NCBI GenBank assembly: GCA_947476215.1
Contig: CANJQI010000023.1
Coordinates: forward strand, 1 to 43,017
DNA length: 43,017 bases
From: Betaproteobacteria bacterium
GTDB taxonomy: Bacteria; Pseudomonadota; Gammaproteobacteria; Burkholderiales; SG8-41
Reading direction: 5' to 3'
Shown here: positions 1-5,515 of the stretch, piece after piece
How positions within the stretch are numbered: the first letter of the stretch is position 1
Layout of the letters: the number at the start of each line of letters is the position of its first letter
Notes under the pieces: model-generated
What the model saw: only the letters and a program-made list of their open reading frames with translations
Databases searched by the model: none
Told to the model about the DNA's origin: nothing
Translations under genes and position numbers: made by a program

Positions 1-36
1 CCGCCCTACATGAAATTCAAATGAAAGGTATCAACC

Positions 37-564
37 ATGACAGGATCCGTACTGCTGTATGACCCCACCGCCCCGTGTGAACGCGAGTCGGAAAAGTTGT
101 GGCATGCGCTGGGGGGCTTGACTGGCAAGGCTGTCGGCTTCATAGACAACGCCAAGACCAATTTCTCGTTTCTGGTGGAAGACCTGTCGGCGCTCCTCAA
201 GGCGCGGCACGGCGTGAATACCATAATCGTAAGGCGCAAACGCGGTGCATCCATGCCGGCTTCGGATGCCGTCATAGAAGAACTGGCGGCGCAATGCGAT
301 TTGGTCATCTGCGGCTCTGGCGATTGAGGCGGTTGCACGTCGTGGAGTGTCCACGACAGCATAGCCGTTGCAAAGCATGGACGTGCCGCTATCACCATAT
401 GTTCGTCTGCTTTTACCAATCTCGGTCATGCCCAGGCGAAAGCGCTGGGCTACCCGGATTTGCCGATTGCGGTCATTTCACATCCGTTCGGAGCATGCAG
501 CCGCGACGAGGTCAATAAAATGGCCGCGCCGTGCATGGATGAAATCGAGCGCCTCGTTGGTTAA
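37..564 (+). CDS. UGSC-family protein, candidate selenoprotein (in-frame UGA read as Sec)
   Basis: Read through one in-frame TGA at 325-327, this frame is open from ATG 37 to TAA 562-564 and gives 175 residues with U at position 97. A GAAAGGT ribosome site lies about 7 nt before the ATG. The residues around the TGA are GD-U-GGCTSWSVHDS, which matches the motif region of the UGSC (seleno)protein family, where U or C occupies this place. The N-terminus (LLYDPTAP, then GKAVGFIDNAKTN) and the tail (LGYPDLPIAVISHPFG) also fit that family, and the usual length is about 170-180 residues. U97 and C100 form a UxxC pair resembling a redox CxxC. A hairpin just after the UGA supports Sec insertion. The biochemical role is unknown to me. 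The alternative is a Cys-to-stop mutation (TGC to TGA) giving a 96-residue fragment, but the intact downstream half argues against decay. It is followed after 19 nt by another + strand gene. Confidence 0.8.
325..327 (+). other. Recoded UGA, probable selenocysteine codon
   Basis: TGA is in frame with the ATG at 37 and is the only stop before 562. It falls exactly at the position that is Sec or Cys in the UGSC family, three residues before a cysteine (C100). Reading it as Sec requires SelA/SelB/tRNA-Sec, none of which is encoded in this window. Confidence 0.75.
339..357 (+). promoter_or_regulatory. Bacterial SECIS-like hairpin
   Basis: GTCGTGGA (339-346) and TCCACGAC (350-357) are perfect inverted repeats around a GTG loop; a 7-bp stem with AGTGT loop is equally possible. 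The stem begins 11 nt after the UGA and the loop 19 nt after it, with G and U in the loop. Bacterial SECIS elements lie inside the coding region immediately after the UGA, have a short apical stem-loop with a G near the loop start, and in E. coli fdhF the minimal stem also begins about 11 nt downstream. It would recruit SelB. No SelB binding can be shown from sequence alone. Confidence 0.7.
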
Positions 565-583
565 CGTAAGCCCATCAAAATAA

Positions 584-1666
584 ATGACCAATAGCTCAAC
601 TACCGGTGGCGCGGCTGGAACAACGCGCAGGCGCGCCGTACTGTTCGAAGCGCTGGATGATCTGGATGCCATCAACGAGATGTATCACGAGCGCCGTTGG
701 ACCGACGGGCTGCCTATCATTCCGCCCACCGAGGAACGCGTATTACGCATGTTGAAGCACAGTCGACGCTCACCTGATGACGTCGTGGCGATACTGGCAC
801 CGGCATTCGGCGCGGCCACCGTAGAGCGGATTGCGATCAATGCCGTCATGGCGGGATGCCCTGATGCGCTGCTGCCGGTGCTGGTCGCCGCCGTCGAGGC
901 CGTTGCGGAAAAGGGGTTTAATCTGCAGGCTATCCAGTGCACCACACATCCGGCGGCGGTGTGGATCATCGTCAACGGGCCCGTGGCGCAGCGGCTGCAG
1001 ATTAACGGGACGTTTAATTGCCTGGGACAGGGAACGCGGGCCAACGGCGCGCTGGGACGCGCACTGCGACTCATACTGCAAAACGTCGGCGGTGCATTGC
1101 CGGCGGAAATGGATCGCTCCACACAGGGACAGCCGGGAAAATACTCGTTCTGCTGTGCGGAAAATGAAGGCGACAGCCCGTGGGAAGCATTGCACGTCGA
1201 ACGCGGGTTTGCGCCCGAGGCCAGTACTGTCACAGTCGTCGCCGCCGGCGGCACCCTGAACATGAACACTCATACCAAGGATGGAGACGAGCTGTTGCGC
1301 GTCATTGCGCGATCGATGGCGTATCCCCCCAGCAACGACTACTGGATTGCCGGCGAGCCGTGGCTCGCGTTGAGTCCGGAGCACGCAGAGATTTTGAAGA
1401 AAAGCGGATACACCAAGGCAGAAGTAAAACGCAGGCTATGGGAAGGGTCCAAGCTGGCAGGACGCGAAATGGCGGCGCGAGATCTGGTGCGCATCAACAC
1501 CGCGCGCTCCGCCGAGCTCGGCGAAATAGGTCCGGACTCCATGATTCCAATCTCGTCCAGTGCGGAGACTATGGGCATCATCGTCGCCGGCGGACCAGGC
1601 ACGCATTCGGTCTATGTGCCGTGTTTCGGCGATTCGCGGGCCGTTACCAAGCAGGTCGTCGAATAG
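584..1666 (+). CDS. Conserved protein of unknown function, partner of the UGSC gene
   Basis: This 360-residue protein starts at ATG 584, 19 nt after the UGSC gene, so the two are probably co-transcribed. I do not recognise a characterised function. It has no signal peptide or obvious membrane segment. Visible features are RRWTDGLPIIPPTEERV near residues 38-53, an alpha/beta-looking middle with glycine-rich stretches (GQGTRANGALGRAL, about 148-161), and a C-terminal GIIVAGGPGTHSVYVPCFGD segment at 331-350. Cysteines are at 92, 119, 146, 190, 191 and 347, several in conserved-looking settings (QCTTHPA, FNCLGQG, FCCAENEG), so a thiol or metal role is possible. The association with a Sec/Cys redox protein suggests the pair acts on one substrate; that is inference. 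The stop lies 14 bp from the convergent Bug gene. Confidence 0.75.
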   Translation: MTNSSTTGGAAGTTRRRAVLFEALDDLDAINEMYHERRWTDGLPIIPPTEERVLRMLKHSRRSPDDVVAILAPAFGAATVERIAINAVMAGCPDALLPVLVAAVEAVAEKGFNLQAIQCTTHPAAVWIIVNGPVAQRLQINGTFNCLGQGTRANGALGRALRLILQNVGGALPAEMDRSTQGQPGKYSFCCAENEGDSPWEALHVERGFAPEASTVTVVAAGGTLNMNTHTKDGDELLRVIARSMAYPPSNDYWIAGEPWLALSPEHAEILKKSGYTKAEVKRRLWEGSKLAGREMAARDLVRINTARSAELGEIGPDSMIPISSSAETMGIIVAGGPGTHSVYVPCFGDSRAVTKQVVE

Positions 1667-2679: not shown

Positions 2680-4140
2680 TCAGCCGCGTACCAGCCGCGC
2701 CGCATTGCGCCCAGCCTTGCGTCCGAAAACCGCGCCTTGAGTCAATCCCGATCCTCCCGGGTAGTTATCGTAGAACAGGCCGCCGACGATTTCGCCGCAC
2801 GCGTACAGTCCTGGAATGGCGGCTTCCCACGTGCTCAGAACCTCAGCCTCGGTGTTGATACGCAGTCCTCCAAACGTGAACGTAATGCCGCAACATACGC
2901 CGTAACCGTGATACGGCGGCGTATCGATGAGCTGCGACCAGTTCGACTTGTTCACTCGCAGACCCTGCGTGCGTTTGCCGTCGAGTATGCGGTGATTGAA
3001 ATCGCCGGGCTGGACCGCTTGGTTGTATTCCTGGACCGTGCGCACCAGCGCGACGGGGTCCAGTCCCAGCATTTGCGCCAGTTTTTCCAGCGTATCGGCC
3101 TTGGCCCCGGTGGGATTGACGTAGCGATGCAGCAAGGGGGCGATCTTGTTGTCCATGATCTGAAAAGCCACGCCCTGCGGCTGGCTCAGCATGGCACGGC
3201 CTATCTTGGCATAGGTGTACGGACGCAGATCCGAGCCTTCATCAATAAAGCGCTCGCAGTTGTTGTTGACCATGATGCACCATGGGTAAGAATAGCGGTT
3301 GTACTCCCAGGTCGGCTGTATGCGCACGCTATAGGGAGGACGGTTGATGTCCTGGGCGGAGGCGTGGCAACCGCTGAGCTGCCCGTAAGACTGGGCGCCG
3401 ATATCCCACGCCATGCGCAGCCCATCGCCGGTGTTGAATGGCACGCCGCGAATCTTGACGGTATCCCAGCCCGCTCCGAGGTAGGTGGCGCGCATCGCCG
3501 GATTGGCTTCAAATCCGCCGCACGCGAGAATGACCGCTTTGGCATTTAATCGTACGAATCCCTGCGGCGTAAGCACCTTTACGCCGACTACATTGCCGCG
3601 CGCGCCACGCAGCAGTTCCATCGCGACATTCTGATAACGGATGTCCACACCCCTGGCGGCGGCAATGTCGAATCCACGGTCCGAAAGGCGTGCACCGCCG
3701 CCATTGAGGTCCGCCACCATGCTCTTTCCGGGCGACTTGTAGTCCTCGTACCATTCATGGCCCATGGCGCGCAGCCACTTCATGGCCGGCAGCGCCTCAC
3801 TGACCATGGTGTGCAGCAGTTCCGGGTCCGAGCGGCCGCCGCTGATGCGCATTGCGTCATCGTAAAACTGCTCCGGCGTATACGGCTTTACGGTCTCGCG
3901 CATCTGCGCGATGGCGTCGGCGGAAATGTTCGGTATCAGCGGAATGATGTCTTCGTCGAGCGAGTTCCAACCGAACCGGTAGTCGGTGGTGAAGTAGGTG
4001 TTGCCGCCGCGCAAATCCTTGGGGGCTTTTTCCAGCATGGCAACCTTCGCGCCGTTTTCAGCCGCCGATATGGCTGCCGCCAGTCCTGCATTGCCGGCTC
4101 CGACGACCACAACTTCATAATTGGCTTCCAGATCTGCCAT
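2680..4140 (-). CDS. FAD-dependent dehydrogenase, TcuA/fumarate-reductase flavoprotein type
   Basis: A 486-residue flavoprotein. I place the start at ATG 4140 (MADLEANYEVVVVGAGNAGL) because it sits one base after the upstream stop codon and directly before the FAD-binding strand; an in-frame start at 4212 would add 24 residues inside the upstream gene. GAGNAG (about 14-19) is the dinucleotide-binding motif, followed by EKAPKDLRGGNTYFT, which resembles tricarballylate dehydrogenase TcuA. The C-terminus has GLYACGEIVGG and NYPGGSGLTQGAVFGRKAGR, the second FAD-binding part of the succinate dehydrogenase/fumarate reductase flavoprotein superfamily. It likely oxidises or reduces a C-C bond of a carboxylic acid. 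The exact substrate is unknown. Tricarballylate is only one family option, and no TcuB electron-transfer partner is present. Confidence 0.88.
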   Translation of the reverse strand: MADLEANYEVVVVGAGNAGLAAAISAAENGAKVAMLEKAPKDLRGGNTYFTTDYRFGWNSLDEDIIPLIPNISADAIAQMRETVKPYTPEQFYDDAMRISGGRSDPELLHTMVSEALPAMKWLRAMGHEWYEDYKSPGKSMVADLNGGGARLSDRGFDIAAARGVDIRYQNVAMELLRGARGNVVGVKVLTPQGFVRLNAKAVILACGGFEANPAMRATYLGAGWDTVKIRGVPFNTGDGLRMAWDIGAQSYGQLSGCHASAQDINRPPYSVRIQPTWEYNRYSYPWCIMVNNNCERFIDEGSDLRPYTYAKIGRAMLSQPQGVAFQIMDNKIAPLLHRYVNPTGAKADTLEKLAQMLGLDPVALVRTVQEYNQAVQPGDFNHRILDGKRTQGLRVNKSNWSQLIDTPPYHGYGVCCGITFTFGGLRINTEAEVLSTWEAAIPGLYACGEIVGGLFYDNYPGGSGLTQGAVFGRKAGRNAARLVRG

Positions 4141-4141
4141 G

Positions 4142-5515
4142 CTAGTGCACTCCCGTATGGTCCAATAAAATCTCCACGTTCTCGACGTTTTCCAGGTTCC
4201 ACAAAACGTCAAGAAGTGCGCGTTGTTGCAGTGGACGCAACATGCGTTGCGTGAGACGGTTAAATTTGCTCTCGATGTCGGCGTCGCTCGGTCCGCTTGC
4301 CATGTCCTCGGCGGTCAATTTTAAATGCGATGCCACGCTTGCGCCACCACTGAGCGTCGCTTGCATCGCGCAATTGCGCACCCCGATTTCATAATCACGG
4401 TCAAATGCATTATCAATGTCCAGTCGGGTGTTCTTGATGAGCCCATGGATATCGTGGTCTAGGTAGCGCCGCCGGTCATAGGAGTCCGGCGTCAAGCTGC
4501 CATCAAGCAAGGTCGCGGCAACCGCGAACAATACCGAATGGTCCGCTGTTTCGCGACTGGTCGCGGCCCACGCCTGTGGGCATTCGACGTCCTTACTTTT
4601 GAATGCGGACCGAAAAGTGCGGATACGCAATGCCGTGATATTGCGCCTGGCGAGCTTGTCATGCAGATCGAGTGCGGTATCCACCATCAGTTGTCCGGCG
4701 TTTCTGACTGGATGTTTTTTGATGACCGTGCGGGTGATAAACAAACGTTCAGTATTTGATACATAAGGTCTAATCTGCCGCATTTCTCCTGTCGTCAACG
4801 CCCATAGCCCGAATTTGCCGCTGATCGGATCGGCAGGCCCGGTCATGCCCTTGGCCGCCAGCACGGCGGCGAAAACGCCCTGTCGTGCGCCGTGCGCGCC
4901 GGCACAGGCTTTCCACATTGAAATATCACCTATGCGGGTTTGATAGGACGAAAAGCTGGGCGTGAGCGCCAGGGCAACCGCTTCGCGCAGCTGATCTCGA
5001 GTCAGGTTCAGCAGTTTGCCGCAAGCGGCTGCCGCGGCAATACCGCCCGCGATCGGCTGATCCCAGCCGCGCAGGTTGAACGGCGCGCTATCGACGATGC
5101 GGCATTGGACCTGGTAGCTTATGGTCAGTGCGCGGATGAAGTCTATCCCGCTGGCGCCCATAGCTTCGGCCACGGCAAGCACCGCCGGGAAATTATCGGA
5201 CGGGTGGGCGCCGCTGCCGGGCAATCCGCTGTCGTCGTTCATGTCCAGATATCGGACCATGACGCCGTTTGCGAAGGCAGCCAGATCCGGTGTCGTACGC
5301 GCAAGATCGCCTATCACGCGTGCCGTGAATGCATCGCAAACAGGTATTGCCAATTCACGCGCAATCCGTGCCGGCGGCGCGTCCACCGCGGCAAGGGCGC
5401 ACCCCATGGTGTCTATCACACGCCGTTTCGCCTGGTGTATGACGGCACAGCTCAGGTCCGTAGCCGCACCCGAAGTAACATAATCGACCAGTTGTTCCAC
5501 CGCGGCATCGGCCAA
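4142..5515 (-). CDS. MmgE/PrpD family protein
   Basis: The product is 457 residues, the usual size for MmgE/PrpD, a family that includes 2-methylcitrate dehydratase and cis-aconitate decarboxylase. Family features include RRVIDTMGCALAAVDAPPAR near residues 31-50, FANGVMVRYLDMNDDSG and GAHPSDNFPAVLAVAEAMGASG (about 80-124), and SMWKACAGAHGARQGVFAA near 200. The start is TTG at 5515, chosen because GGAGG lies 10 nt upstream and no in-frame ATG is near. The gene ends one base before the flavoprotein start, so the two are translationally close. It would dehydrate, isomerise or decarboxylate a carboxylic acid in the same pathway; the substrate cannot be assigned. Confidence 0.9.
   Translation of the reverse strand: MADAAVEQLVDYVTSGAATDLSCAVIHQAKRRVIDTMGCALAAVDAPPARIARELAIPVCDAFTARVIGDLARTTPDLAAFANGVMVRYLDMNDDSGLPGSGAHPSDNFPAVLAVAEAMGASGIDFIRALTISYQVQCRIVDSAPFNLRGWDQPIAGGIAAAAACGKLLNLTRDQLREAVALALTPSFSSYQTRIGDISMWKACAGAHGARQGVFAAVLAAKGMTGPADPISGKFGLWALTTGEMRQIRPYVSNTERLFITRTVIKKHPVRNAGQLMVDTALDLHDKLARRNITALRIRTFRSAFKSKDVECPQAWAATSRETADHSVLFAVAATLLDGSLTPDSYDRRRYLDHDIHGLIKNTRLDIDNAFDRDYEIGVRNCAMQATLSGGASVASHLKLTAEDMASGPSDADIESKFNRLTQRMLRPLQQRALLDVLWNLENVENVEILLDHTGVH

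Follow-up and report, generated by a model that had tools for sequence, protein, structure and literature searches.

A UGSC-family selenoprotein gene with a constant partner: 52 Sec-encoding paralogues in one bacterial genome and a tentative link to the reductive cleavage of carboxylic acids

The window analysed here, a stretch of 43,017 nucleotides, opens on the plus strand with a gene of the UGSC family (37-564) whose frame contains an in-frame UGA at 325-327. With TGA translated as Sec, the gene runs from an ATG at 37 through the TGA at codon 97 and a further 78 codons to a TAA, and would encode 175 residues with Sec97 in a UGGC motif and a Cys at residue 100. This is the open 175-codon frame broken by one TGA that the first-pass annotation had described, and the two minus-strand ORFs that it had listed across the gene (6-419 and 31-429) both exist. 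Past the UGA lies a SECIS-like hairpin (339-357, +), and 19 bases past the UGSC stop begins a 360-residue protein (584-1666, +) that is the counterpart of the C-terminal portion in 33 fused paralogues and carries an invariant Cys92. The convergent neighbour on the minus strand is a TctC-type solute-binding protein of a tripartite tricarboxylate transporter (1681-2637; PF03401, E 3.7e-59), which possibly represents the uptake side of the locus. It is followed on the same strand by an FAD-dependent tricarballylate dehydrogenase-like gene (2680-4212; NF006130, 500.7 bits) and an MmgE/PrpD-family gene (4142-5515; PF03972, E 6.1e-66), for both of which a shared pathway is only putative.

Membership of the UGSC family, already proposed from the sequence around the TGA, is borne out by a single PF24696 match that spans the TGA (E 1.5e-46; 159.1 bits against a Pfam whole-protein cut-off of 25 bits; residues 8-173, profile positions 3-169 of 172). 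The NCBIfam equivalog NF041046 aligns over positions 2-145 of its 147, but at 122.4 bits the protein falls 2.6 below the cut-off of 125 bits; it is therefore filed under PF24696 and not under the equivalog. As for the motif, U does stand at the family site, but the window copy reads UGGC, not UGSC. The open frame by itself is weak evidence, since 16 of the 1368 TGA codons examined in the six frames of the window, codon 97 among them, are preceded by at least 90 open codons and followed by at least 75. What raises this frame above chance is the profile match through the TGA, taken together with the Sec machinery of the genome and a covarying hairpin past the UGA. On this sequence evidence, we consider it well supported that the window gene encodes a real selenoprotein and that its UGA is decoded as Sec.

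The first-pass annotation had proposed a search for selA, selB, selC and selD, and had held that a genome without selABC would speak against Sec decoding. All four genes are present in the assembly to which the window belongs (G000; 5.75 Mb, 326 contigs, 98.46% complete, 1.17% contamination): matches to selA and selB exceed their cut-offs, tRNA-Sec reaches 74.1 bits, where the gathering score is 47, and has the anticodon TCA according to ARAGORN, and selD, on contig C41, itself contains one in-frame TGA and reads GGGUGCK. Another candidate for selD, a PF02769 match on C70, was rejected, as its sequence reads as PurM. Between selB and selC lies a gene for a Pyr_redox_2 protein with a CADC motif (L077, G000:C221, 434-1351), which by its sequence appears to be thioredoxin-reductase-like and could possibly provide a dedicated electron supply.

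The same genome contains 58 matches to PF24696, 57 of them above the cut-off, and in 52 of these genes a UGA stands at the first position of U-G-x-C. U, G and C are invariant across all 52 Sec copies, the window copy included. Three of the 52 can be set aside as cut, partial or carrying a second stop (C104, C37:36241 and C307), which leaves 49, with start codons checked in part. The six matches without the UGA comprise degraded copies on C45 and C7 (the latter in two pieces), a fragment (C158:2894) and long open proteins on C76 and C80. These last two (L075, G000:C76; L076, G000:C80) are long fused UGSC-partner proteins that, as read from the sequence, have neither U-G-x-C nor C-G-x-C at the site.

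The hairpin at 339-357 starts 14 nt past the U of the UGA, inside the coding region, and consists of a stem of seven pairs (339-345 with 351-357) around a loop with GU (346-350). In the window copy, the RNA fold of the stretch after the UGA reaches a z of -3.62. For covariation, we aligned 64 sequences, 40 of them distinct, made up of 29 of the 52 own copies and 35 stretches from relatives. The own copies were those with TSW, ASW or SSG past the motif, with the 23 copies of other stem types left out, and the relatives' stretches, mostly from one orthologous group, came from 36 loci, from which L097 was dropped as off pattern. Within this alignment, 98.2% of 280 cells are paired in the stem, compared with 17.5-51.4% for slid versions; double-changed cells number 23 where shuffles give 5.3, and covariation scores 0.277, compared with 0.086 in shuffles. 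None of 500 shuffles reaches the observed value for paired cells, double-changed cells or covariation score, while the other two of the five measures, pairs changed on both sides and further pair types, show no excess over shuffles (203 of 500 each).

The codons of the stem point in the same direction. In the 28 own copies with TSW or ASW, the outermost pair is G-C in 22, A-U in five and G-U in one, with both partners at silent third codon positions. The Ser at +5 is written TCG in all 28 of these copies, against 32% of the Ser codons in the same genes, and the His at +9 is CAC in all 28, against 43% over the same genes. This codon bias is a silent-site constraint on the stem, and we count it in favour of Sec decoding; the hairpin as such we regard as well supported. 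The 16 PAV-like copies have a different stem of six pairs at nearly the same distance, each position of which is paired in 15 or 16 of the 16. Compared with synonymous recodings, 31 of the 52 copies fold beyond a z of -1.64 and 21 do not; in this test, C136, C104, C36 and C158 give no signal. A search of window positions 1-1200 against Rfam matched no family. That the stem alone is no proof of Sec is evident from a homologue with a Cys codon (TGC) at the site, L108, in which six of the seven pairs can still form, as read from its sequence; in L109, the stem is not kept. The site in L108 (422-454), a Cys codon followed by most of the stem, may be a relic of an earlier Sec codon.

Every one of the 52 Sec copies is linked to the partner domain: 33 are fused to it, and 19 (the partial copy C37:36241 counted among them) are unfused with a partner match at most 79 bases away on the same strand, before or after the UGSC gene. 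The domain is absent from 20 stretches of control DNA (240 kb) on contigs picked for having no UGSC match. We thus regard the constant pairing of UGSC and partner as well supported. Among the 33 fused partners, 14 are 53-62% identical to the partner of the window gene and the remaining 19 are 25-35% identical (alignment A2, 34 sequences), and 20 columns of this alignment are invariant, including Cys92, Asn86, Asn154, Arg159, Glu193 and Trp200. What, then, is this domain? Pfam gives no match to the partner in the window copy or in a fused protein from Asanoa iriomotensis, NCBIfam contains nothing significant for the 34 members (best E 0.034), and profile searches against the sequences in the PDB found nothing significant (best E 0.13 and 0.06, the latter for the partner). 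The available text of the GOS study describes a fusion of UGSC to a conserved domain named Unknown_1 (PMC2398784), which is probably the same domain. The best explanation of the arrangement is that the window gene encodes the Sec-bearing half of a two-part enzyme, of which the protein at 584-1666 is the other half.

The Sec half can be placed by profile comparison beside GrdB and PrdB, which carry the Sec of the glycine/sarcosine/betaine and D-proline reductases. Aligned with hhalign, the 52 UGSC domains match five GrdB/PrdB-like Sec domains with a probability of 88.4 (E 2.8e-6 for this one pair) over 84 columns, with Sec on Sec and UGxC on UGxC. Twelve other alignments were used as controls, namely those of the partner, of TctC and of ten groups of neighbours, some of which are probably not real genes; none exceeded 1.4, and the maximum for 30 column-shuffled versions was 0.5. 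An additional neighbour group reached 99.6 because its members are N-terminal halves of UGSC proteins. The probability is 75.8 with GrdB alone and 27.5 with the PrdB-like domains alone. The GrdB/PrdB family profile PF07355 does not match the window protein at E up to 1, where PF24696 is the only match, and in the genome it finds three other genes and no UGSC gene, so we do not file UGSC as a member of that family. A distant relationship between the Sec half and the Sec domain of GrdB/PrdB is nevertheless supported by these sequence comparisons. The two systems would have in common the position of Sec, the UGxC motif (UGTC in the genome's own GrdB) and a two-part layout; they differ in that UGSC is without the N-terminal part of GrdB and its partner is unlike GrdE. 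A GrdE-like origin of the partner was considered and rejected, as it shows no similarity to the GrdE of this genome (probability 0.1, one sequence), and the two-part analogy is therefore one of layout, not of descent. In GrdB/PrdB complexes, the place of the partner is taken by a GrdE/PrdA-type protein with a pyruvoyl group derived from Cys.

The GrdB of this genome is part of a cluster (L161, G000:C148, 3266-7554) in which a Sec GrdB (UGTC) adjoins a GrdE-type gene (PF09338) and DUF5940, in the manner of glycine/betaine reductases, and it is the only full-length PF07355 match among the 299 genomes of the phylum that were sampled, own included. Two PrdB-like genes (L153, G000:C52; L154, G000:C99) have a TGA at a UPNCTC motif and are candidate selenoproteins; on C52, a UGSC gene is found at a distance of about 3 kb. 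Counting only these families, the genome holds at least 56 Sec candidates: 52 UGSC, SelD, GrdB and the two PrdB-like genes. The largest bacterial selenoproteomes cited in the accessible part of a recent paper are those of Olavius algarvensis Delta 1, with 57 genes, and of a Methylomirabilota MAG, with 63 (PMC13188914), and in view of these sets we claim no record for the total number. The total here is similar, but nearly all Sec genes found belong to one family.

For the fold, an AF2 model of the fused Asanoa protein, built from four sequences, predicts five strand-helix repeats in the UGSC domain and places the Cys motif where the third helix begins; block means of pLDDT lie at about 58-86 within this domain, most of the rest has a pLDDT below 50, and the partner part of the model is unusable. 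The best PDB matches by Foldseek are a flavodiiron protein, WrbA and a TIR domain (E 2.9e-4), and no thioredoxin occurs in the best 50 rows. With moderate confidence, the model thus suggests that the Sec half adopts a flavodoxin-like alpha/beta fold with UGxC at a helix start and, at the same confidence, speaks against the published guess of a thioredoxin-like fold.

Which substrates might such an enzyme act on? The gene neighbourhoods offer hints, with an important reservation about TctC. TctC genes number 134 in 463 kb of UGSC loci and 38 in 240 kb of control contigs, a density 1.8 times higher, where the control contigs were chosen for having no UGSC match and some of the UGSC loci overlap. 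A TctC gene lies within 1.5 kb of 42 of the 52 UGSC genes, compared with about 50% of random 1.6-kb segments, which may themselves overlap a TctC gene, and within 400 b of 33 of the 52, compared with about 37% at random. The genome as a whole is very rich in TctC for its 5.75 Mb: a first look gave 995 candidates for PF03401, and all 150 of the 150 scored exceed the cut-off. Since TctC is so common, its proximity to UGSC is only a modest argument, and we no longer treat the adjacency as strong evidence. Neighbour groups with guessed labels (CoA-transferase-like, FAD and others) are few, occurring 12, 10, 10, 7 and 5 times in 506 kb of UGSC loci, against 2, 3, 1, 1 and 0 times in 240 kb of control DNA. 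Homologues with Cys in place of Sec provide two further settings. In Asanoa iriomotensis, the homologue is fused to its partner, has Ldh_2 on one side and TctB-TctA-TctC directly downstream, and shares its strand with all of these and with a 2-hydroxyacid dehydrogenase that comes next. In a Streptosporangiales MAG, the genes next to it, on the opposite strand, encode a luciferase-like monooxygenase and a cyclase, and an ABC importer is present, as read from the ORFs. In both, UGSC appears from the sequence to sit among uptake and breakdown genes.

Putting these observations together, we propose a two-part Sec enzyme, decoded through SelB and the hairpin, with a GrdB-related Sec half, that carries out reductive cleavage of carboxylic acids; we hold this overall reading tentatively, at a little under even chance. 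SelB and tRNA-Sec would decode the UGA at 325-327 using the hairpin at 339-357. The partner would bind and activate a small substituted carboxylate, whereupon the selenolate could attack the substituted carbon and expel an amine, a halide or a similar group. Cys100, three residues past Sec, would then cleave the selenoether to give the reduced product and an Se-S bond, and a thioredoxin-type reductase, such as the one encoded between selB and selC, might restore the selenol. The 52 Sec genes could plausibly serve different substrates imported through TctC-type uptake. The proposal builds on the glycine and proline reductase chemistry of Sec attack, selenoether formation and thiolate cleavage to a selenenyl-sulfide, as set out in the available portion of a review (PMC10298544), and on the fluoroacetate reductase for which, in the available text, GrdB-like Sec proteins are proposed and protein B complexes are described as substrate-specific (PMC10838667). 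The substrates, the bond cleaved and the electron donor are what we infer by analogy. As that text presents them, FarB and FarE, the proposed fluoroacetate reductase, share with UGSC the combination of a Sec protein and a partner, substrate specificity, a transporter of their own and a proposed carbon-halogen cleavage (PMC10838667). However, they are GrdB-family proteins of Synergistota, and we liken them to UGSC by description only. It is a more speculative thought, possible but doubtful in our view, that within a bacterial family one selenoprotein fold gave rise to two-component selenoenzymes, as many as about 50 and each specific to a substrate, which would extend reductive cleavage of the glycine-reductase type to many imported organic acids beyond the amino-acid-fermenting anaerobes known for this chemistry.

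Two other functions compete with reductive cleavage. UGSC proteins could be general thiol-disulfide or peroxide oxidoreductases with the thioredoxin-like fold suggested in the literature, their copy number reflecting redox defence. UxxC is indeed a classical redox motif, but the five predicted strand-helix repeats, flavodoxin-like and with no thioredoxin in the best 50 Foldseek rows (one model, four sequences), argue against such a protein, and a constant partner together with transport and breakdown genes beside both named homologues fits a general reductase poorly; we judge this function unlikely. Somewhat less likely again is that UxxC handles a soft metal or organometal, or belongs to a lyase or isomerase that reduces no carbon-heteroatom bond. 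The accessible part of one paper (PMC13188914) considers a role as metal ligands for other selenoprotein families, and the partner brings its own invariant Cys92; against this, kinship with GrdB/PrdB favours reductive cleavage, with the neighbours annotated in part.

The size of the family itself calls for scrutiny, as the genome is a metagenome bin and mixed strains might inflate the copy number. The assembly is broken into 326 contigs, and in a relative (G055) contigs have N gaps at the repeated UGA-hairpin stretch. However, the identity of each copy to its best in-genome paralogue has a median of 62.7% and a maximum of 73.3%, with none above 90%, so the copies are not strain duplicates, and contamination is only 1.17%. 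Moreover, a relative with about 30 contigs and 100% completeness (G021) has 21 matches, and the counts for G055, G046 and G040 are 35, 21 and 40, where some matches are parts of a single gene. An assembly artefact is thus very improbable, and the copy number is well supported. From the split matches in G055, we had considered a repeated element of about 300 b inserted at the Sec codon, and rejected it: the gaps are runs of N. At six loci of that genome (L138-L143), gaps and contig ends coincide with the UGA-hairpin stretch repeated among UGSC genes, and short-read assemblies may therefore undercount the family. In the literature searched, which does not include Haft and Tolstoy 2025 or Deng 2026 (the source of the 63-gene set), we found no single selenoprotein family with 52 copies. 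Near full-length matching, Sec at UxxC and the occurrence of both short stand-alone and fused forms agree with the UGSC family as known (PF24696, NF041046); what differs here is that a single genome holds 52 Sec copies, none of which lacks the partner. Finally, that the UGA at 325-327 is a true stop and the half after it a decaying remnant can be dismissed almost entirely, for although degraded copies exist in the same genome (C7, C45), 52 copies retain the UGA at an invariant site and continue past it, the stem covaries and the sel genes are present.

How widely is the family distributed? PF24696 occurs in all 60 genomes sampled from the same GTDB family, own included, but in only three of 40 genomes from other families of the order. 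Matches per genome range from 1 to at least 31 in the GTDB family, with at most 31 candidates scored in each, and five fully scored genomes, one from another family, have 21, 35, 21, 40 and 19, again with some matches being pieces of one gene. A sample across the phylum, with at most eight candidates scored per genome, found UGSC in five of 398 genomes, own included, that is, in four of the 397 others, with TGA in three of those four. The first-pass annotation had also regarded Cys in close relatives, together with a lost downstream half in the window gene, as an argument against Sec; TGA stands at the site in the 52 in-genome paralogues and in 35 of 36 relatives' loci, a set without the direct orthologue of the window copy, the 36th locus being off pattern. 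The two confirmed Cys (TGC) homologues are distant, actinobacterial proteins with 37% and 34% identity. At L144 (G021:C18:330000-341000), adjoining UGSC variants without the resolving Cys read UGSS and CGTS, the latter with Cys in place of Sec. A Schlesneria locus (L110) was rejected as a homologue, being only a short pattern match, and scans of viral contigs found no UGSC relatives. A tree was built from 85 UGSC domains, 35 of them from relatives and 50 from the own genome, whose two remaining Sec copies were too short. The window copy belongs to a clade formed by 14 own copies (99/99), and another own copy, C106, to one that holds 27 relatives' copies (100/99). The leaning of the relatives to one group is partly a matter of selection, because loci were taken by best profile scores.

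A selB match (E up to 1e-80) is found in 54 of the 60 genomes of the GTDB family and in 12 of the 40 others, including all three UGSC carriers outside the family. Among the SelD matches listed above the cut-off outside the family, a TGA occurs only in G064 and G071, which both carry UGSC, and the third carrier, G061, has no SelD above the cut-off.

The UGSC family was listed in 2008 (PMC2398784) and again in 2026 (PMC13188914), and the available parts of both papers give it no assigned function. The combination of 52 paralogues, a constant partner and a link to glycine and proline reductases now provides a testable enzyme hypothesis for it. Because of the UGA, UGSC genes are liable to be split in ordinary gene calling. 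The picture that emerges is of a bacterial family investing heavily in selenium through one protein family, and if reductive cleavage proves true, these genes would amount to a large store of selenoenzymes that deaminate, dehalogenate or similarly convert organic acids.
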